Of a stretch of DNA of 64,000 nucleotides, positions 9,691 to 43,525 are shown in pieces. A program made the position numbers and the translations under genes. The DNA is from Propionicimonas sp. (GTDB lineage Bacteria; Actinomycetota; Actinomycetes; Propionibacteriales; Propionibacteriaceae), in the NCBI RefSeq assembly GCF_029975155.1, contig NZ_JARKPQ010000140.1, positions 16,195 to 80,194 on the forward strand, read 5' to 3'. Numbering within the stretch: position 1 is the stretch's first letter; each line of letters opens with the position of its first letter. Under the pieces are notes generated by a model that searched no databases, was not told the origin of the DNA, and saw only the letters and a program-made list of their open reading frames with translations.

Positions 9691-10112
9691 AGCGGATCCT
9701 GCTGGTCGGCGGCGTCGGCTGCGGCAAGACCACCCTGCTGCAGCGCCTGCACGGCACCGAACTCAGCTACGCGAAGACCGAGACCATCTACACCGACGGC
9801 GCCGTGGTGGACACCCCTGGGGAGTACCTCGAGCTGCCCTGGTTCAAGCATGCGCTGCGGCTGGCGTCGTTCGAGACCGAGCTGGTGGTGCTGCTCGCGT
9901 CCGCCACCGTCGGGGAGGCGCGGTTCCCGCCCGGCTTCACCACGTTCTTCATGCCACCGTCGATCGGCGTGGTGACCAAGATCGACATCGCGACCCCGGC
10001 CGAGGTCGCCACCGCGTCCAGCCACCTGCGCCTCGCCGGCGCGACCGAGTTGTACGAGGTCTCCGCCCTCACCGGAGAGGGCATGGACGTCCTCGCCGCC
10101 CGCCTGGCCTGA
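9687..10112 (+). CDS. pduV: EutP/PduV-family GTPase-like protein
   Basis: A 141-residue Ras-like P-loop protein of the PduV/EutP family. The GTG start (VKRILLVGG) overlaps the pduU stop; the track version begins upstream in pduU. The P-loop GGVGCGKTT, a G3-like 'VVDTPGEYLELPW', and 'VVTKIDIA' (G4) are intact, and 'YEVSALTGEGMD' matches the SAL loop. In Salmonella, PduV binds PduU and has been linked to microcompartment movement. It is the last gene of the two-gene pduUV unit; repeat DNA follows. Confidence 0.92.
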   Translation: MKRILLVGGVGCGKTTLLQRLHGTELSYAKTETIYTDGAVVDTPGEYLELPWFKHALRLASFETELVVLLASATVGEARFPPGFTTFFMPPSIGVVTKIDIATPAEVATASSHLRLAGATELYEVSALTGEGMDVLAARLA

Positions 10113-34790: not shown

Positions 34791-36422
34791 ACTCGCCGCC
34801 GTCCCGACCGTCGCGTCGAGTGAGGCCAGGTCCGCCTCGATCGCCGGGAGGTCGGTGCTCTGCGTGTCCAGGAGTTGCCGGCACGTGAGCTCGGCCTCGC
34901 GCAGGGCGGCCACGTGGTCGGCCAGGCTCTGTTCGAGGCTTCGCCTCGCCGCGGCTGCCGTGCGGTAGCCGGTGCGGGCGAGGTTGCGCTCCACCTGCGC
35001 AGGCACCATCCGCAGGAAGTGCCGGTGCACCAGCGGACGCAGCAGCGCCATCGGCAGAGCCCAGGAGAGCAGCTCCAGATGGCTGTCGAAGACCGCGCTC
35101 ACCATCACGTCGACCGGTTCCACGGGCGTCCGGACGGGCTGCGGGACGGGGAGGTCGAGACCGACGCCGGTCGCCTCGCGGACGAGCCGGCCGAGCCGCT
35201 GCAGAAAGGCCTCCCCCATCCGTTCCGCCGGCTCCAGGCCCTGGTCGAGGAGCGGTCCGAGCTCGTCCGCGCAGGCCGCGGCGAACGGCGTGGCCGCGTC
35301 GCGGAGCGCGTGCCGCAGCCAGTCCCGGAACTGCGCGGTCTCGGCGGCGAGAGAGCCCCGCCACGCAGGCAGGCGTCCGGCGAGATCGCGCTGCACCCGC
35401 CACGCGGTGGCCGGCAGCGCCTCCCCCACCATCGCCTGGCAGCGCGCGGTGATCGTCCGGTTGACCGGTTCGAGCTGGGCGCGCGCCTGGCGGGTGAGGC
35501 TCGGCAGGCGCCGGCTCTCCGCGTCCAGGGCACCGCGCAACTGCGCCATCGCCTCGGCGTGGGTCGTCGCGGCGAGCCGGGCCAGCTCCAGGTAGGTCCG
35601 GCACTCGGTGGCGAGCCGGACCGACCGGTACGCCGCGAGGTCGGTCGCCGCGGCCGTCGCCGAGTCGCTCAGCTCCCGCAACTCCCTGCGCAGCCGCTCG
35701 CGCTGCGGCCGGTGCCGGGCGGCGCTGGACACGGGCAGGACGGACGGCGCAACGGGCAGCCGCCGGCCGAGCTGCGTCCTGACGTGCTCGAGGACGGCTC
35801 GCTGGTCGTGCTCAGTGAGCAGGTCGATCTTGGTCAGCGCGATCAGGATCCGCGGCGTGTGCGGGTGGAGCAGTTCGAGGAGCTCCAGGTCGTCCTCGGC
35901 GAGCGGCTGGGTGGCGTTGACGGCGAGGATCGCGGCGCCGACGTTCGGCAGCCAGTCCAGGCTCGCGCGGGTGTTGTGCTTCCAGGAGCTCCCCGTCCCC
36001 GGAGTGTCCACCAGGACCAGTCCGGCGAGGTCGGCCAGCGCCGGGGACGCCACGTCCACCCACTCCACGCCGCGGTGGTTCGACGGGTTGCCGGTCTCGG
36101 TGGCCCAGTGCCCGATCTCCGCCGGCTCGATGCCGAACGGCGCCCCCGTCCCGGTCTTCACCGACACGCGCAGGGCCGGGCCGAACCGCAGCCGGGTGAT
36201 CACGGCGGTGGCCGGGATCGCCTGCACCGGCAGCAGGTCCTCCCCGAGAAGCTGGTTCAGCAGCGTGGTCTTGCCGGCCTTGAACCGGCCGAGGACGGCG
36301 ACCGTGACCAGCCCTTCGGCGGCCTGCTGCTGTGCCGTGCGGCAACGCCGGTCGATGTCGGTCAGGTGGTGACGGCGCGCGATCCCGGCGATCGTGGCCA
36401 GGTCAGGGGAGAACGATCCCAT
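34761..36422 (-). CDS. Dynamin-like GTPase under fluoride riboswitch
   Basis: A 553-residue large GTPase. G1 GRFKAGKT (45-52), G3 DTPG (139-142, followed by TGSSWKHN), and G4 TKID (197-200) are intact. Residues 250-450 are mostly helical, and a hydrophobic patch near the C-terminus (LLSWALPMALLRPLVHR) could be a membrane paddle, as in bacterial dynamin-like proteins. The last residues (SVIPADAGIR and the stop) are translated from a dispersed repeat. A fluoride riboswitch-like RNA lies 10 bases upstream of the start, back to back with the one serving enolase. Its role in fluoride stress is not described to my knowledge; membrane repair or remodelling is a guess. Confidence 0.86.
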   Translation of the reverse strand: MGSFSPDLATIAGIARRHHLTDIDRRCRTAQQQAAEGLVTVAVLGRFKAGKTTLLNQLLGEDLLPVQAIPATAVITRLRFGPALRVSVKTGTGAPFGIEPAEIGHWATETGNPSNHRGVEWVDVASPALADLAGLVLVDTPGTGSSWKHNTRASLDWLPNVGAAILAVNATQPLAEDDLELLELLHPHTPRILIALTKIDLLTEHDQRAVLEHVRTQLGRRLPVAPSVLPVSSAARHRPQRERLRRELRELSDSATAAATDLAAYRSVRLATECRTYLELARLAATTHAEAMAQLRGALDAESRRLPSLTRQARAQLEPVNRTITARCQAMVGEALPATAWRVQRDLAGRLPAWRGSLAAETAQFRDWLRHALRDAATPFAAACADELGPLLDQGLEPAERMGEAFLQRLGRLVREATGVGLDLPVPQPVRTPVEPVDVMVSAVFDSHLELLSWALPMALLRPLVHRHFLRMVPAQVERNLARTGYRTAAAARRSLEQSLADHVAALREAELTCRQLLDTQSTDLPAIEADLASLDATVGTAASVIPADAGIR

Positions 36423-36432
36423 GCGTGTCCGG

Positions 36433-36488
36433 TCCTTCTCTCGTCAGGGACCGTCAGCAGGGTGCGGTTGAGGCGAGCCCCATCGCCT
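36433..36488 (-). promoter_or_regulatory. Fluoride riboswitch (crcB motif) upstream of GTPase gene
   Basis: Read on the minus strand: GGCGATGGGGCTCGCC, then TCAACCGC, a short loop, and GCTGACGGTCCCTGA. This matches the fluoride-riboswitch pattern GGCGATG-N-CGCC, AAC(C/T)GC, GCTGATGG(C/T)TCC(T)AC, with the GGGG/TCCC pseudoknot possible. It ends about ten bases before the GTPase start, which favours control of translation. The core was identified by eye from the known consensus. Confidence 0.82.
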
Positions 36489-36544
36489 GGAACACATGGT
36501 AACCGTGGTCGCCCCTGACGCGACGGGTCGACTAGAGTCGGCAG

Positions 36545-36604
36545 TGGGCGGTGGGGCTCGCCCTTACTCAAACTGCCGTGCCCGCGGCCAACGGTCCCTA
36601 CCTC
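36545..36604 (+). promoter_or_regulatory. Fluoride riboswitch (crcB motif) upstream of enolase
   Basis: GGGCGGTGGGGCTCGCCC, TTACTC, AAACTGCC, loop, GGCCAACGGTCCCTAC. The P1 stem, the AAACTGCC strand and the 3' GGTCCCTAC pseudoknot strand all match the fluoride aptamer; the usual GATG is GGTG here. It lies about 125 bases before the enolase ATG. The spacer contains a hairpin (GGCTCCA/TGGAGCC) near 36690 that could be part of the expression platform. Confidence 0.78.
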
Positions 36605-36728
36605 ATGTGCAGTCCGGCTGGACATGGAGGTGGGGCTTTCGCTCACTTTCACCTCACCCTTCGCGGCCAGCCGGGCTGCACCCCTCCCGGGCTCCACCGT
36701 GGAGCCGGCGAAGCGAAAGGGGACGGTC

Positions 36729-37994
36729 ATGGGTTTCGAGATCAGCAGCGTGCAGGCGTTGGAGGTGCTGGACTCCCGCGGGCGTCCCACGCTCTCGGTG
36801 ACGGTCGGCCTCGCGGACGGGACGGTGGCCGAGGCCGGGGTGCCGTCCGGCGCGTCGACGGGGACGCGGGAGGCCGTCGAACTCCGCGACGGGGACCCGG
36901 CCCGGTTCGGCGGTGCGGGCGTCAGCCAGGCCGTCGCCCACGTGAACACCGAGATCAACGCCGGGCTGGCCGGACGCGAATGGGCCGGTCTCGCCGAGGT
37001 CGACCAGGCCATGCGCGACCTGGACGGCACCCCGAACAAGGCCCGGCTGGGCGCCAACGCGATCATCGGGACGTCGATGGCGCTGGCCCGGGCGCTCGCC
37101 GCCGCCGCGGGGTCGCCGCTGTACGAGTGGCTGCCCGGCACCGGTGCGTCCCGCCGCCTGCCGGTGCCCTGTTTCAACGTGCTGAACGGCGGCGCCCACG
37201 CCCCCAACCCGCTGGACTTCCAGGAGTTCATGGTCTGCCCGCTCGGCGCGCCGTCGATGCGCGAAGCCGTCCGCGCGGGGGCGGAGGTGTACCAGGCGCT
37301 GCGGAAGCGGCTCGTCGCCGGCGGACACGCCACCGGGCTGGGCGACGAGGGCGGGTTCGCGCCGAACCTCGCCGAGCCGGAGGAGGTCCTGGAGCTGATC
37401 GTCGCGGCGATCGGGGACGCCGGCTACGCCGCCGGCAGTGACGGGGTGGGCATCGCGCTCGACCCGGCCGCGTCCGAGTTCTGGTCGGACGGCGGCTACA
37501 CGGTGAACCAGGTGCGGCTGTCCAGCGCGGATCTGATCGCCCGCTACGCCGAGATGCTGGACCGCTTCCCGATCTGGAGCATCGAGGACGGCCTCGGCGA
37601 GCAGGATCCGGACGGCTGGAAGCAGCTCACCGCCGAGCTCGGCGACCGCGTCCAGCTGGTCGGGGACGACAACTTCTGCACGAACCCGGCGATCATCACC
37701 GCGGCGATCGCCGACGGGATCGCCAACGCCGCCCTGATCAAGGTGAACCAGATCGGCACGGTCACCGAGACCCTGGAGGCGATGCGGATCTGCCACGCGG
37801 CCGGGTACGGCCAGATGGTCTCCCACCGCTCCGGCGAGACCCCGGACACGTTCATCGCCGACCTCGCGGTGGCCACCGGCTGCGGCCAGATCAAGACCGG
37901 CGCCCCCGCCCGCGGCGAGCGGGTGGCGAAGTACAACCGCCTGGTCCAGATCGAGGCCCAGCGTCCCGCCCTGCCCTACGGTCTGGCCCGGTAG
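36729..37994 (+). CDS. eno: Enolase, fluoride-responsive copy
   Basis: A 421-residue phosphopyruvate hydratase (2-phosphoglycerate to phosphoenolpyruvate). Conserved parts: PSGASTGTREAVELRD, NVLNGGAHAPNPLDFQEFM, GLGDEGGFAPN, IEDGLGEQDPDGW, KVNQIGTVTETLEAM and SHRSGETPDTFIADLAVA. The usual 'GDDLFVTN' reads GDDNFCTN, two changes next to a Mg-binding Asp. Fluoride with phosphate is a classical enolase inhibitor, so a copy behind a fluoride riboswitch fits a compensating or less sensitive isozyme. Whether the genome has another, housekeeping eno cannot be seen here. Confidence 0.95.
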   Translation: MGFEISSVQALEVLDSRGRPTLSVTVGLADGTVAEAGVPSGASTGTREAVELRDGDPARFGGAGVSQAVAHVNTEINAGLAGREWAGLAEVDQAMRDLDGTPNKARLGANAIIGTSMALARALAAAAGSPLYEWLPGTGASRRLPVPCFNVLNGGAHAPNPLDFQEFMVCPLGAPSMREAVRAGAEVYQALRKRLVAGGHATGLGDEGGFAPNLAEPEEVLELIVAAIGDAGYAAGSDGVGIALDPAASEFWSDGGYTVNQVRLSSADLIARYAEMLDRFPIWSIEDGLGEQDPDGWKQLTAELGDRVQLVGDDNFCTNPAIITAAIADGIANAALIKVNQIGTVTETLEAMRICHAAGYGQMVSHRSGETPDTFIADLAVATGCGQIKTGAPARGERVAKYNRLVQIEAQRPALPYGLAR

Positions 37995-38134: not shown

Positions 38135-38503
38135 CTACAGGCTGCCCAGCCAGAACCCCAGTGCGGCGCCGGCGACGCTGAGGACCAGCATGCCGCCGGC
38201 ATGGACGAGCAGTGCCCAGCCGCGGCCGCCCCGGGCGAGCCGCGCGGCCTCCACGCAGGCGGTGCTGAAAGTCGTGTAGCCGCCGAGGAAGCCGGTGCCG
38301 AGCAACTGCTTGAGTTCCGGGTCGCCGGTGTGGGTGGCCCACCAGCCGGTGATCACGCCGAGCAGGAGCGACCCGGTGACGTTGATCACGGCCGTGCCCA
38401 GGGGCATGCCGCGGTTCGTCGTCCGCCGGGCGACCTCCGAGTCGACCACGAACCGCGCGACCGCGCCGAACCCGCCGGCGAGCGCGACCAGGAACGGGAT
38501 CAT
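38135..38503 (-). CDS. crcB: Fluoride exporter subunit CrcB/Fluc (distal copy)
   Basis: A 122-residue four-helix membrane protein. Signature segments are GGFGAVARFVVDS (first helix), GTAVINVTGSLLLGVITGWW (the pore Asn helix) and GFLGGYTTFSTACVEAARL (the TTFST phenylalanine-box break). Fluc channels act as dual-topology dimers that let fluoride leave the cell. Two adjacent genes usually give an antiparallel heterodimer. The ATG overlaps the stop of the other crcB (ATGA). Confidence 0.95.
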   Translation of the reverse strand: MIPFLVALAGGFGAVARFVVDSEVARRTTNRGMPLGTAVINVTGSLLLGVITGWWATHTGDPELKQLLGTGFLGGYTTFSTACVEAARLARGGRGWALLVHAGGMLVLSVAGAALGFWLGSL

Positions 38504-38979
38504 CGGATCGCCCCCTTCGCGAGCCGGTAGCGGCGCAGCAGCCGCCGCACTCCTCTGGCGCCGAGGAACGCGCACAGAAGGCCGAGCAGCACGCTGCCCA
38601 GCGCGTAGCCCAGACCGACCAGCCATGCCCCGGAATGGACCAACTGCGCCGTTTCGACCGCGAACGTGCTGTACGTGGTGTAGCCACCCATCACGCCGGT
38701 GCCCACGCCGAGCCTCAACCCGCGGCGCCAGCCTCGATCGGGACCGGTCTCGGCCAGCACCTCCAGCAGCACCCCCAGCACGAGCGCGCCGGAGACGTTG
38801 ATCCAGAAGGTGGTCCACGGCCACTCCCCCGGCATGGCCGGGAACGCACCCTCCAGCCACGCGCGGGCGGACGTGCCGACCGTGCCGCCGAGGAGGATCA
38901 CCCCCAGCCACGCGGGACGCACCGGAATGCGCAGCATCCGCAGGCCGGGGATGGAATGGCCGTCCTGCGGCCGGGTCAC
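38500..38979 (-). CDS. crcB: Fluoride exporter subunit CrcB/Fluc (proximal copy)
   Basis: A 159-residue Fluc subunit. The GTG start overlaps the stop of the uspA-like gene (GTGA). After an N-terminal ~30-residue extension come 'LGGTVGTSARAWLE', 'TFWINVSGALVLGVLLEVL' and 'GVMGGYTTYSTFAVETAQLV', the three Fluc signatures, and a basic C-terminus (RRLLRRYRLAKG). The charge distribution differs from the partner copy, as expected for two fixed-orientation subunits. Confidence 0.95.
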   Translation of the reverse strand: MTRPQDGHSIPGLRMLRIPVRPAWLGVILLGGTVGTSARAWLEGAFPAMPGEWPWTTFWINVSGALVLGVLLEVLAETGPDRGWRRGLRLGVGTGVMGGYTTYSTFAVETAQLVHSGAWLVGLGYALGSVLLGLLCAFLGARGVRRLLRRYRLAKGAIR

Positions 38980-39518
38980 CACGGGGTCGGTGCCTTCCAG
39001 TCGACGACGGAGAGCGGCACGATCAGCACGGGACGGTGCTGGTGCCGCGACAGCCGCAGCGCCACCGAACCCGCGATGAACTCGCGCAGCCGGTCGGTGG
39101 ACGACAGCCGCTTCGCGCCCACGACGATCGCGGACGCCTCGACGGCCCGCGCCAGGTGCGTGAGCGCCCGGTCGGGACGCCCGGCGAGGTAGCGGAACTC
39201 CCACGGACCCTCGTGGCTGGCCAGTGCGCGCCCGAGGAAGGCGGTGATGTCCCGCTCGCGCTGCTGCCAGGAGTCGTCCGCCTGGTCGGGGTCGAGATCC
39301 GAGTGCCGGACGGTGCCGTCCGCGTACTCCTCGTCGACGATCCGGGACTCGTCCGCGTAGCCGAAGTACAGCGGCACACCGCCGAGCGCGTCCGACCAGG
39401 CCGACGCGGTGAGCGCCACCAGTTCGGACTGACCCGGCACCACACCGACCACCAGCGGCTGGCCCGCCACCGGGGCCATGCGATCGGGACTGGGCTGCGG
39501 CACGTGGTGGAACGGCAC
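38976..39518 (-). CDS. Universal stress protein-like protein heading the fluoride exporter operon
   Basis: A 180-residue UspA-fold protein. 'PLVVGVVPGQSELVALTASAW' is the first strand and helix. The later motif 'ASAIVVGAKRLSSTDRLREFIAGSVALRLSRHQHRPVLIVP' follows the nucleotide-binding GxxG-x9-G(S/T) pattern in spacing. Start set at a GTG seven bases after GGAGG; an internal ATG at 39479 lacks a clear ribosome site. It lies between a fluoride riboswitch and two crcB genes, all coupled. UspA-like genes are known among riboswitch-linked fluoride genes. Confidence 0.85.
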   Translation of the reverse strand: MPFHHVPQPSPDRMAPVAGQPLVVGVVPGQSELVALTASAWSDALGGVPLYFGYADESRIVDEEYADGTVRHSDLDPDQADDSWQQRERDITAFLGRALASHEGPWEFRYLAGRPDRALTHLARAVEASAIVVGAKRLSSTDRLREFIAGSVALRLSRHQHRPVLIVPLSVVDWKAPTPW

Positions 39519-39570
39519 GGATCGACCTCCGCTCAGAGGGGCGCCGAACTCCCGCGCGCCCGCCAAGGAC

Positions 39571-39634
39571 GTACAGGAACCATCAGCCGGTCGGCGGTTC
39601 GGGATTGCCCCGGGTGGGATCCATCACCCGCCGC
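39571..39634 (-). promoter_or_regulatory. Fluoride riboswitch (crcB motif) upstream of uspA-crcB-crcB
   Basis: Minus strand: GGGTGATGGATCCCACCC, a small extra hairpin (GGGGCAATCCC), AACCGCC, loop, GGCTGATGGTTCCTGTAC. This is the best match in the window, with the canonical TGATGG, AACCGCC and GGCTGATGGTTCC segments. It ends 52 bases before the uspA-like start. Confidence 0.9.
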
Positions 39635-39649
39635 ACACCCTAGCCCGGA

Positions 39650-39731: not shown

Positions 39732-40340
39732 TCAGAGACCGGTCTGGTGCGTGACGGCCAGGGCCGTCTCGATGGGGTCGTCCTTGCTGTTGGCGCGGAT
39801 CAGGTGCCAGCCGGTGTCGTCGTGGCGCAGGAGGCTCCAGCAGCCGGTGCGGGGCTGGACGTGCTCGGTGTGGCCGGGGGTGGGGGTCAGGGTGTCGAGC
39901 AGGATCCGGATCACGGCGTCATGGCTGACCACGGCGACCGCGACGTCCTCGCCCAGGTCGGCCAGCTCGGCGACCACGGCGTGGGCGCGCTCGGCCACCG
40001 CAGCGGACGGTTCCACGCCCGGCGCGGCATCGAAGGACCCGTAGTCGGCCAGCACGTCCGCCGCCGGCGTGCCGTCGAAGCGGCCGTACGCGCGGTCGGC
40101 GAGCCGCTCGTCCGTCTCGACCTCCACCTCGGCGGCCTCGGCGATCGGGGTCGCCGTCTCCACCGCCCGGCTCAGCGGGCTGGAGATCACCCGGACGAGG
40201 CCCACGTCCCGCAGCGCGGCGGCGAGGTCGCGGGCCTCCGCGTGACCCACCAGGTCGAGGTCGGGGTCGAGCCGTCCGCGCAGGAGCCCCGCGACGTTGA
40301 GCTGGGTGCGACCGTGGCGGCACAGGTAGATGTCGGTCAT
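39732..40340 (-). CDS. Histidine phosphatase family protein
   Basis: A 202-residue member of the phosphoglycerate mutase-like histidine phosphatase superfamily. The catalytic RHG motif is YLCRHGRTQLN (His9), with 'VISSPLSRAVETA' containing the second catalytic Arg and 'AVAVVSHDAVIRILL' the C-terminal His. It is the last gene of the MutS-like operon, its ATG overlapping the stop of the second MutS-like gene. Substrate unknown. Presence in a fluoride-regulated operon may point to a phosphorylated metabolite that builds up when enolase is blocked (speculative). Confidence 0.85.
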   Translation of the reverse strand: MTDIYLCRHGRTQLNVAGLLRGRLDPDLDLVGHAEARDLAAALRDVGLVRVISSPLSRAVETATPIAEAAEVEVETDERLADRAYGRFDGTPAADVLADYGSFDAAPGVEPSAAVAERAHAVVAELADLGEDVAVAVVSHDAVIRILLDTLTPTPGHTEHVQPRTGCWSLLRHDDTGWHLIRANSKDDPIETALAVTHQTGL

Positions 40341-41824
40341 GTCGGTGTCCTTTCACACAGGCGTTCGTACAGGTCGATGCCATGGCTGGTGGCCTGCGGT
40401 TGCCCGGGCAGGACGCGGAAGCTGCGCGTCCCGTCCAGCTGCCGTTCGGCCAGCAGGAAGATCGTGCCCGGCCGGTCGAGGTAGTGCCGCGCGAGCCGGG
40501 CGAAGTGGGTGACCACGACCAGCCGCAGGCCGTGGTCGAGGAGCGCGTCGATGATGTCCGCGGCGATCCAGGTGCCCTCCACCTCGTCGGTGGAGGCGAA
40601 GGACTCGTTCATCAGCAGCAGGTCGCCCGGCTGGCACCGGTCGACGATCGCGCTCATCCGGACGAGCTCCTCCGCCAGCTTGCCGCTGGCCAGGTCGTCG
40701 TCCTCCGCCCTCCGGAAGTGGGTGTGCACCGCGGGCGCCGGGCACGACCGGAACGCCCTCGCCGGCACGAACATGCCGGCCTGGAGGAACAGCTGCGCGA
40801 TGCCGATGCTGCGCAGGAACATGGTCTTGCCGCCCTGGTTGGCCCCGGTGATCACCGCCAGGCCGACCCGCGAGCCGGTCAGGTCGTTGGGCACCGGCGG
40901 CGCGCCGGTCCGGACGGCCAGGCTCAGACAGGACAGCCCGGAGGCGGACAGCGCGTCGCGTTCGCCCGCCGGCTCCGGCCAGCAGACGCCCACACCGATC
41001 TCGGCGAGCCGCTCGTGCAGCTGCACGCAGCCGACGTAGAAGCCGGCCTCCCAGCGCAGCTGCCTGAAGAACGCCACGACGTGGTCGTTCGCCCGGCCGA
41101 GGATGACGGCCACGTCGTGGATGGCGTCGTCGCGGAGTTCGGCCAGCGCCCGCGCCCCGGCCTCGTCGCGGTCCGCGATCGTGAACCGGGGCTGGCCCGG
41201 CGGGGTGAATCCGAGGGCAGCCCACCAGTGCCGCCGTCCCGGACGGGGGGCGAGCAGCTCCAGCGAGCCGAGCAGCCCCGACTCGTCCAGGCGCGCCCTG
41301 CTGACCACCCCCTGCGGGAACTCGAGCCGGGTCAGCAGCGCGGCCATGTCGTCGAGGTACCCGGCGTCCAGTTCCTCGACCAGTCGCCGGTACAGCCCGA
41401 ACAACCCGGGCGAGCGGACGGACGGCAGGTGCTGCGCGGCGAACCCGGCGAGCTCCCCCAGCAGGGGCAGCAGCGCCCGCAGGCCGTGGATCGAGCGGGA
41501 CAGCAGCGAGTCGGCGGTCCGCCCGGCGTACATCCAGATCGAGTGCTGGCTCTCCAGCGCCCGCCCGGACAGGTCGAAGAGAGCGCGGATCGCGGACGGG
41601 TCGGCGAGCGCGTCGGCGAGGACGTGCTGGCGCCAGGCGATCTGCGCGGGATCGACCAGCGGACGCAGCAGGACGGCCGGGCACAGGCCCTGCAACCGCC
41701 GCTCGGGGACCATCACCTCGAACACCGAGTCGAGGTCGAGGTCGGCGATCAGCTCGTCCGCGCCGTCCGGGAGGGTGGTGCCCAGGTCGGCGTCCCGGTC
41801 GGGGAACAGCAGCTGGACCTTCAT
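40337..41824 (-). CDS. MutS-like ATPase, second copy
   Basis: A 495-residue protein with only the core/clamp-like helical region and C-terminal ATPase of MutS; the mismatch-recognition N-terminal domain is absent. Walker A is TGANQGGKT (327-334 region). The Walker-B segment reads DLLLMNESFAST, so the usual Asp-Glu is Asn-Glu, while Glu is kept. 'LVVVTHFARLARHYLD' supplies the switch His. It starts at the ATG overlapping the stop of the first copy (the 862-residue track ORF runs into that gene in another frame). The pair probably forms a heterodimer. MutS-like genes are known companions of fluoride riboswitches, with unknown function. Confidence 0.88.
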   Translation of the reverse strand: MKVQLLFPDRDADLGTTLPDGADELIADLDLDSVFEVMVPERRLQGLCPAVLLRPLVDPAQIAWRQHVLADALADPSAIRALFDLSGRALESQHSIWMYAGRTADSLLSRSIHGLRALLPLLGELAGFAAQHLPSVRSPGLFGLYRRLVEELDAGYLDDMAALLTRLEFPQGVVSRARLDESGLLGSLELLAPRPGRRHWWAALGFTPPGQPRFTIADRDEAGARALAELRDDAIHDVAVILGRANDHVVAFFRQLRWEAGFYVGCVQLHERLAEIGVGVCWPEPAGERDALSASGLSCLSLAVRTGAPPVPNDLTGSRVGLAVITGANQGGKTMFLRSIGIAQLFLQAGMFVPARAFRSCPAPAVHTHFRRAEDDDLASGKLAEELVRMSAIVDRCQPGDLLLMNESFASTDEVEGTWIAADIIDALLDHGLRLVVVTHFARLARHYLDRPGTIFLLAERQLDGTRSFRVLPGQPQATSHGIDLYERLCERTPT

Positions 41825-43389
41825 CGCAGCCTCCGGGCCAGATCGTCGCCGGAGAGGCCGTGCCGGGCGGCCAGCGCGGCCGCGTGGGTGCGGCCGGCGG
41901 GCGGCTGGGCGCGGAACCGGAAGGTCGGCCGGGTGGGGTCGTCGGACGCGACCTGGCCCACCATGCTGACCGCGCCGTCCGTCGCGGTGACCAGCTCTTC
42001 GAGGAACGTCACCCACAGCACCCGGCAGCCCGCCTCGGCGAAGCGGCCGAGCACGCGTCCGGACAGCTGCAGCGCGTCCTCGGCCGTGGTGGCCGAGAAC
42101 AGCTCGTTGAGCACGAGCAGCGCCGACCCGTCCGCCGCGTCCAGCAGGTCGCGCAACCGGACCAGCTCGTCGGCGAGACCACCCCGCTGGTTGGCCGGGT
42201 CGTCCGGACGCGGGAAGTGGGTGAGCACCGGGTTGAGCACCGGCAGGGATGCCGCTCTGGCAGGCACGGGCAGGCCCAGCGACGCGAGGTGCGCCAGCTG
42301 CCCGGCCGCACGGACATAGGTGGTCTTGCCGCCCTGGTTGGGTCCGGTGACGAAGACGAGCCGCTCGTCCGGGCGCAGGGCCAGGTCGTTCGGCACGAGC
42401 GGGTCGTCCGGGCCGGCCTTGAGCGCGAGGGCGAGATCGACGAAGCCGCTCAGGTCGAGCGGGCCGCCACCGGGCTCGCGGACCTGCGGCAGGCACCACG
42501 GGACGCCGCGGGCGGCGAGCCCGTCCGCGACCTTGAGGAAGCCGAGGTAGAAACGCAGCTCCTCGCCCAGGTGGTCCAGCTCGTCGGGCAGGAAGTGGGC
42601 GTGGGCGGTCGCGAACCGGTGCAGGCGCTCGAAGGCCTCGGGCATGAGCTCGGCAACCAGCCCGATCGCCTGGGCCTCGACGTGGTTGAGGTAGCGCCGC
42701 GGACGCGCCGGGGCGGGGCTCGCGTCCCCGTCCGGCGTGGCGAAGCGGGCGAAGAACGACTCGACCTGCTCGCCCCACGGCTGCCGGCCGCCGTCCGGGG
42801 CGGCCCAGACGGTGCCGCTCTGGATGCCGAGTTCCACGGCGGGGCCGCGCACCTCGACCAGCGAGGCCGCGCAACCCTCTGCCAGGTCGCCGAACGGCTG
42901 GCTGCGCTCGTAGTCGGCCAGCCATTCGGCGACACCGGTCAGCCCGGCGGACCGTGGCCGGAGGTGATCCAGCCGGGCGCGAAAGTCGCGCACGGCCGCC
43001 GTGAACCGTCGGATCGCCTCAAGCGTGTCGAGGTCGGCGGGGATCCGGTAGTGGGCGTTCGCACGGGCGGCGATGGCATTCCTGGAGGCGGCGACGGCGG
43101 CCTCGAACGAGGTGGCCGCCGCGCGGAGATCGGTCCGCTGCAGGTCGCGGACGACCTCTTGCCGGTAGCGGATCTGCTCCGGGTCGCGGAGGGGCCTGAG
43201 CCACACCGCGCGCTGGAACTCACCCGGCGCCATGGCGGCGACGACGGCGTCCAGGTGCAGGTCCTCGATGCAGGCCGGCTGCACGACAGCCGTCCGCTCG
43301 GGACCGGACGGGCCGAGCAGCGTCGGTGCGGCAGGACCGCGGGTGGTGACTGTCCCTGGTGGGTGAATGACATAGCCGGCTGCGCTCAT
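41821..43389 (-). CDS. MutS-like ATPase, first copy, under fluoride riboswitch
   Basis: A 522-residue MutS-type ATPase lacking mismatch-binding and connector domains. An N-terminal segment is followed by a helical clamp-like region and the ATPase with Walker A GPNQGGKT (349-356). The region after it (RAASLPVLNPVLTHFPRPDD) resembles the MutS dimer interface. The Walker-B analogue is ALLVLNELFSAT, again Asn-Glu. It heads a three-gene unit joined by ATGA overlaps and is preceded by a fluoride riboswitch 19 bases upstream. A role in classic mismatch repair is unlikely. Confidence 0.88.
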   Translation of the reverse strand: MSAAGYVIHPPGTVTTRGPAAPTLLGPSGPERTAVVQPACIEDLHLDAVVAAMAPGEFQRAVWLRPLRDPEQIRYRQEVVRDLQRTDLRAAATSFEAAVAASRNAIAARANAHYRIPADLDTLEAIRRFTAAVRDFRARLDHLRPRSAGLTGVAEWLADYERSQPFGDLAEGCAASLVEVRGPAVELGIQSGTVWAAPDGGRQPWGEQVESFFARFATPDGDASPAPARPRRYLNHVEAQAIGLVAELMPEAFERLHRFATAHAHFLPDELDHLGEELRFYLGFLKVADGLAARGVPWCLPQVREPGGGPLDLSGFVDLALALKAGPDDPLVPNDLALRPDERLVFVTGPNQGGKTTYVRAAGQLAHLASLGLPVPARAASLPVLNPVLTHFPRPDDPANQRGGLADELVRLRDLLDAADGSALLVLNELFSATTAEDALQLSGRVLGRFAEAGCRVLWVTFLEELVTATDGAVSMVGQVASDDPTRPTFRFRAQPPAGRTHAAALAARHGLSGDDLARRLR

Positions 43390-43407
43390 GGGCGTCCCTC
43401 CATCCGA

Positions 43408-43453
43408 GGTAGGGACCGTCAGCGTTCGCGGTTGTCGGCGAGCCCCATCGCCG
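43408..43453 (-). promoter_or_regulatory. Fluoride riboswitch (crcB motif) upstream of MutS-like operon
   Basis: Minus strand: GGCGATGGGGCTCGCC, GAC, AACCGC, GAAC, GCTGACGGTCCCTAC. Nearly the same as the copy ahead of the GTPase gene (same P1 stem, same TGACGGTCCCT). It ends about 19 bases before the MutS-like ATG, and the spacer contains GGAGGGA as ribosome-binding site. Confidence 0.85.
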
Positions 43454-43525
43454 TCCCTCCACTGTACCCGCAGCGCCCGCCGGGAGAACCTGCCGCCAAC
43501 CCCACCAACCGTTGGTCGGGCGGCG

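Follow-up and report, generated by a model that had tools for sequence, protein, structure and literature searches.

The 306-base spacer (36423-36728) between the start codon of a dynamin-like GTPase gene, which ends at 36422 on the minus strand, and the ATG of a second enolase gene at 36729 on the plus strand most probably carries two complete fluoride riboswitches, one canonical and one belonging to a G6-C38 subtype of the aptamer, each predicted to start at its own outward-facing promoter and to act as an ON switch. We assign this reading, taken as a whole, a probability of about 0.78. The spacer lies in a 64,000-nucleotide stretch of Propionicimonas sp. DNA (hereafter the window). Two aptamers on opposite strands of a single 306-base divergent spacer, serving the GTPase and the enolase respectively, had been proposed in the initial annotation of this DNA, and both the matches to the Rfam family RF01734 and the spacer coordinates agree with that proposal. 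Two further aptamers, absent from that annotation, make the window a fluoride island with four aptamers, in which crcB, the second enolase and the universal stress protein (USP) are the fluoride-resistance genes (Table 1).

Table 1. Features of the fluoride island; positions refer to the window, and boxes and hairpins are predictions.
Feature	Position	Strand	Score or remark
Dynamin-like GTPase, 553 aa	34761..36422	-	Dynamin_N 4.1e-18; minus-strand aptamer upstream
Predicted SD-sequestering hairpin	36430..36453	-	-10.6 kcal/mol; full-leader folding
GTPase fluoride aptamer, canonical A6-U38 type	36438..36496	-	P1 start 36487; RF01734 34.0 bits, E=7.8e-8
-10-like box TACCAT	36496..36501	-	8 nt before GTPase aptamer P1
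-10-like box TAGAGT	36533..36538	+	8 nt before enolase aptamer P1
Enolase fluoride aptamer, G6-C38/A39 variant	36538..36607	+	core 36547-36602; RF01734 23.7 bits, R1 46.5, R2 61.4
Hairpin I (anti-pseudoknot), GGUCCCUACCUCAUG...CAUGGAGGUGGGGC, then CUUUC	36593..36638	+	-24 to -29 kcal/mol in 9/9 leaders
Hairpin II, long rod, mutually exclusive with hairpin I	36610..36678	+	91% of cells paired; -32 to -53 kcal/mol
Hairpin III, just upstream of enolase SD	36690..36706	+	3/6 pairs altered on both sides
Enolase SD AAAGGGG	36716-36722	+	
Second enolase, 421 aa	36729..37994	+	Enolase_C 2e-104
Two crcB (Fluc fluoride channel) genes	38135-38530 and 38500-39204	-	CRCB 3.3e-22 and 1.7e-24
USP, first gene of the USP-crcB-crcB group	38976..39566	-	Usp 2.1e-9
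Third fluoride aptamer, A6-U38 type, before USP-crcB-crcB	39567..39637	-	RF01734 38.2 bits
Two MutS-domain-V proteins and histidine phosphatase (PGM-like)	39732..43389	-	MutS_V 1.9e-15 and 1.1e-14; His_Phos_1 5e-41
Fourth fluoride aptamer, A6-U38 type, before MutS-MutS-PGM	43403..43461	-	RF01734 37.4 bits

The assembly, a draft, has 404 contigs and an estimated contamination of 8.3%; congeners carry the same gene groups, which argues against a misassembled island. Two congeners have GTPase orthologues that adjoin PGM and MutS genes inside an island of fluoride aptamers; there the second enolase likewise has a fluoride aptamer of its own. A related-locus search with the GTPase protein as query gave no matches.

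The GTPase aptamer scores exactly the gathering score of RF01734 (34 bits). The enolase aptamer falls below it, with E-values that are far from chance (1.8e-4 on 421 bases and 5.1e-4 on the whole genome), and on account of this sub-cut-off score we class it as a variant subtype and not as a standard member of the family. A covariance model built from relatives together with the window aptamers (R1) gave 53.8 bits for the GTPase copy and 46.5 bits for the enolase copy, and a variant-specific model (R2), from whose training set the window enolase aptamer was left out while members of its clade were included, gave the latter 61.4 bits. In the numbering of Thermotoga petrophila, and with the A6-U38 and A40-U48 pairs as described in PMC11586693, the GTPase aptamer shows P1, P3, the five-pair pseudoknot and both long-range pairs in an alignment of 22 rows, all 22 of which keep A40-U48. 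The enolase aptamer likewise has complete P1, P3, five-pair pseudoknot and A40-U48 linchpin, and P1, P3 and the pseudoknot are 100% paired across nine leaders of the enolase type. The consensus ends of the two aptamers are 41 bp apart and the 5′ ends of their P1 helices about 60 bp. Both copies thus share the architecture of the RF01734 riboswitch (crcB motif; Thermotoga petrophila structure) as well as its gene contexts (crcB, eno, Na+/H+ antiporter, pyrophosphatase), the enolase copy differing by G6-C38 in place of A6-U38, A39 in place of G39 and its score. We infer from these sequence features that both aptamers bind fluoride.

That the two aptamers differ, with GATG in one and GGTG in the other and with unlike P3 loops, had been noted before and holds on the sequence. 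What the initial annotation lacked is that in the enolase aptamer the change from GATG to GGTG, i.e., A6 to G, is accompanied by U38 to C and G39 to A. In relatives too A6 to G is paired with U38 to C, and usually also with G39 to A, so that the tertiary reverse Watson-Crick pair A6-U38 becomes G6-C38. When the search pattern fixed neither position 6 nor position 38, 395 Actinomycetes genomes, the window's own included, returned 23 matches, namely 20 with G6/C38, three with A6/U38 and none mixed; with independent columns a split of this kind is expected by chance once in 1771 cases (Fisher's exact test, relatedness ignored). As far as the sequences indicate, the GATG to GGTG change is therefore better understood as half of a coupled swap at a tertiary pair, the mark of a widespread subtype, than as tuning private to this aptamer. 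The initial annotation had suggested that, with these differences, the two copies may respond at different fluoride levels. The Levitt pair 15-48 of tRNA resembles 6-38 in being a tertiary reverse Watson-Crick pair with an A-U and a G-C form; it belongs to a different RNA and serves just as a structural precedent for tolerance of such a swap.

With the variant positions fixed, at least 119 stretches of actinobacterial DNA in the named genome collection match the pattern, for the most part ahead of crcB and enolase, and the matches listed include Streptomyces, Mycobacterium, Nocardioides, Kribbella, Amycolatopsis and others. In 19 genomes with pattern matches the G6-C38 aptamers detected reach approximately 17-25 bits with RF01734, each of them under 34, and in 16 of these genomes nothing exceeds the RF01734 cut-off. 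Across the same 395 genomes R2 reaches 50 bits or more in 54, the window's own genome among them, against 12 in which the RF01734 cut-off is passed, a comparison to be read with the fact that R2 was trained on pattern matches and therefore favours sequences near that pattern; the A6-U38 aptamers at the loci read here score about 46 bits at most with R2. These counts imply that surveys relying on Rfam undercount fluoride control in Actinomycetes, Streptomyces and Mycobacterium included. The G6-C38 subtype thus appears to be common in actinobacteria and apparently undescribed, no description having been found in the literature searched, a set without the papers that first gave the consensus and the crystal structure.

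The fluoride riboswitch serves as a reference for how RNA senses anions. Its ligand site is held by two long-range pairs, of which A6-U38 is one; the natural and widespread A-U to G-C swap at 6-38 shows what this site can tolerate and supplies many natural variants for testing. A bolder and rather doubtful extension would be that Actinomycetes chiefly use the G6-C38 subtype as their fluoride riboswitch, overlooked by the Rfam model, and that it is a distinct sensor in affinity, Mg2+ dependence or kinetics, with pairs of A6-U38 and G6-C38 aptamers setting two thresholds in a shared promoter region. If this were true, neighbouring operons would receive different fluoride thresholds from one such region.

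In order for the aptamers to act they must be part of the mRNA. In the clade, 30 of 35 aptamers, both window copies included, have a TANNNT box whose end lies 6-9 nt before P1, as compared to 34 of 10225 control positions (0.33%), and TAGAGT, TAGATT or TACAGT precedes the enolase aptamer in 8/8 cases in the genus; in the wider variant class a box lies within 4-11 nt in 45 of 124 aptamers. No -35 box is recognisable at either window aptamer, and a promoter scan for the sigma-70 consensus found no site. Given TANNNT at a near-fixed distance before P1, transcripts should start at P1 or within a few bases of it, and it is unlikely on these grounds that the aptamers are absent from the mRNA. Two promoters would thus fire outward, each transcript beginning at or a few bases from the P1 of its own aptamer. 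With the opposing boxes 31 bp apart, the -35 contact regions are bound to overlap, and it seems unlikely that both promoters are occupied at once.

On the GTPase side, the 3′ strand of the pseudoknot, GGUCC (36448-36452), is complementary to GGACC (36431-36435) in the Shine-Dalgarno (SD) region AAGGACC, and the start codon (36420-36422) lies 8 nt beyond this pairing. The same design is found at the fourth aptamer of the window and at the MutS aptamers of congeners. In a set of 62 short-leader aptamers of the variant, pairing between the pseudoknot strand and the leader of the same locus has a mean energy of -14.3 kcal/mol, compared to -11.7 +/- 0.28 kcal/mol with the leaders of other loci, an advantage equalled in 0/500 permutations, and the extension past the pseudoknot covaries by eye (ACCT/AGGT, ACTCG/CGAGT, ACGTTG/CAACGT). 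The better pairing with the own leader and the covarying extension support an SD sequestration that is lifted by fluoride: without fluoride GGUCC would pair with GGACC, and with Mg2+/F- the pseudoknot would be locked and the SD freed, giving a translational ON switch. Control of the GTPase at the level of translation by SD release is likely, judging from the sequence, and it fits the observation that intrinsic-terminator switches are almost missing in Actinomycetota (PMC13273304). Translational fluoride riboswitches are known by name from Burkholderia pseudomallei and Pseudomonas syringae (PMC13273304), and translation control is the likely output that they share with the GTPase and MutS copies; in the window the GTPase SD itself faces the pseudoknot strand, just after the aptamer. 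In Streptomyces relatives (L073, L103, L104, L108) the SD that the GGAG aptamer sequesters seems to be that of a short open frame, possibly a leader peptide, with the enolase or another gene further downstream.

The enolase leader is longer. A downstream leader of about 125 bases with a hairpin had been described, and we find one of approximately 121 nt, kept in eight genomes of the genus (the window's and seven others) plus one further copy. In hairpin I the pseudoknot strand is paired with GGAGGUGGGGC; 97% of the cells are paired over the nine leaders, two pairs are altered on both sides, registers slid along the sequence give 34-53%, and in most of the nine leaders the hairpin is followed by 2-4 U. 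The covariation of hairpin II was no better than that of shuffles. The scan for intrinsic terminators detected none in the enolase leader. When the pseudoknot strand was blocked in folding of the leader, SD exposure shifted slightly and not in a consistent way, with no clear SD release, and a simple SD-accessibility model was rejected on this basis. Control by an upstream open reading frame was set aside as well: an SD and start codon just past the aptamer are present in some actinobacterial eno leaders (L089, L113), inconsistently and with no example in the genus. The conservation of hairpin I favours an ON switch through this hairpin, whose output may be termination or translation. Without fluoride, the pseudoknot strand would be held in hairpin I, which would act as a weak, U-poor terminator or via SD access; with fluoride, the strand would be captured in the aptamer, hairpin I blocked, and the leader would pass to hairpin II with the enolase expressed. 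Both the direction of switching and the part played by termination or SD access are inferred.

The most explicit form of the first output is intrinsic termination at hairpin I and its short U-run (CUUUC, UUUGUU), disarmed by fluoride as at crcB of Bacillus cereus, whose transcriptional riboswitch likewise forms an alternative hairpin on the pseudoknot strand. We consider this a real possibility, if somewhat short of even odds. The 5′ arm of hairpin I is the pseudoknot strand itself, the hairpin is stable in every leader and U residues follow it in most; on the other hand, the U-run is shorter than normal, the terminator scan was negative, and members of RF01734 from Actinomycetota almost never terminated in vitro in an assay that used the E. 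coli polymerase (PMC13273304). In contrast to Bacillus cereus crcB, the weak U-run of the enolase leader is followed by approximately 90 nt more of conserved leader before the start codon. The divergent layout may have a plain origin in a crowded fluoride island, in which two regulated operons come to lie divergently without being coupled in function, and we lean towards this reading, since other divergent pairs differ in partners and spacing and the pair is not kept as a unit; against it, several families show such pairs, and the two -10 boxes here lie so near each other that polymerases would be expected to interfere.

A second divergent pair is found outside the window on the same contig (C312:9580-9630(-) and 9732-9779(+), within L241, G000:C312:9575-9784), both aptamers being of the G6-C38/A7 (GGAG) type, before DUF2180 (-) and a Na+/H+ exchanger (+); a pair at C312:9575-9784 is absent from the RF01734 matches for the genome. 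Back-to-back pairs with gaps of 81-277 bp are present in six further genomes (G032, G021, G541, G576, G463, G461), with partners such as USP/eno (G032), DUF190/Nudix (G541), ABC-F/pyrophosphatase (G576) and, in G021, a variant with an enolase-type leader facing an NADHdh-family gene. Several pairs join A6-U38 to G6-C38 and others like to like, and the 41-bp gap of the window is the smallest among those found. Because the partners differ, the arrangement recurs without being inherited as a unit. Two candidate partners call for caution: L057 1946-2023(-), a weak and likely false match with a glutamine-synthetase-like frame downstream, was not counted, and L231 6921-7005(+), with C6/C38, may be degenerate. 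In G021 (L053 9428-9723) a canonical MutS aptamer has, approximately 166 nt upstream and in the same orientation, a G6-C38 aptamer with an enolase-type leader; the two may form a tandem.

As to what the variant senses, the genes behind it are informative. Downstream of the U7 variants we counted CrcB in 43/89, enolase in 19/89 and DUF190 in 7/89 cases. The A7 (GGAG) branch precedes more varied genes, among them HTH proteins, ABC-F, DUF6062 and YaaH, and is also found before enolase, CrcB, MutS, dynamin and pyrophosphatase, with a Na+/H+ exchanger behind an A7-branch aptamer in the window's own genome; Na+/H+ exchanger, NADHdh-family subunit and pyrophosphatase genes occur at other paired aptamers. 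The genes that most often accompany fluoride riboswitches include those for enolase, Na+/H+ antiporters, pyrophosphatase and formate hydrogenlyase (PMC11139923), and this match makes fluoride the likely ligand of both branches. A sensor of some non-fluoride ligand, be it the whole G6-C38 subtype or its G6/A7 branch, seems to us very unlikely: the changed tertiary pair adjoins the ligand site and the gene range of the A7 branch is wider, as such a sensor would have it, but CrcB and enolase dominate the U7 branch, the A7 branch includes the fluoride-type genes just named, and A6-U38 and G6-C38 types share islands. For the A7 branch in particular, a different ligand was judged unlikely after enolase, CrcB, pyrophosphatase and the Na+/H+ exchanger had been found with it. 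Still harder to credit is a decayed, non-sensing element on the enolase side with the GTPase alone regulated; the score of 23.7 bits, under the cut-off of 34, would suit it, yet eight genomes of the genus, and many actinobacteria besides, keep the same variant before enolase, positions 6 and 38 covary, and pseudoknot, P1 and P3 stay fully paired across the enolase-type leaders. Chance or decay as the origin of the element was rejected on account of this genus-wide and class-wide conservation.

The enolase under this control also differs from the housekeeping protein. The other enolase of the genome is encoded on a different contig. The window enolase carries SIEDG instead of SIEDP, and all readable aptamer-linked enolases (the window's and those of L216-L221, L223, L079, L089, L113, L138, L140, L142, L155, L170 and L179) have SIEDG and an N that ends the NGGxHAxN loop, compared to SIEDP and NGGxHADS in 8/8 readable housekeeping enolases. 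We take both sites to adjoin metal-binding and catalytic residues, and a fluoride-tolerant isozyme is for that reason a reasonable guess; the aptamer-linked enolases are possibly a clade of such isozymes, as their motifs suggest.

Some further gene families were observed directly behind fluoride aptamers. An HTH protein with the motif LYLCEGLSTYRI recurs there in Streptosporangiaceae and elsewhere, mostly with the GGAG type (L069, L087, L118, L122, L127 and L243 9659-10639), as do ABC-F type ATPases (L081, L088, L122 and L231 7790-9445); together with MutS and dynamin, the latter make P-loop NTPases a theme of the fluoride regulon. GPR1/FUN34/YaaH (acetate-type) transporters lie behind GGAG aptamers at L127 2530-3156 and L165 1442-2071. 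Several mycobacterial genomes have multiple G6-C38 aptamers, some with downstream genes other than crcB or enolase, including PPE, TauE and MFS families (L070, L078, L079, L100, L126, L158, L169).
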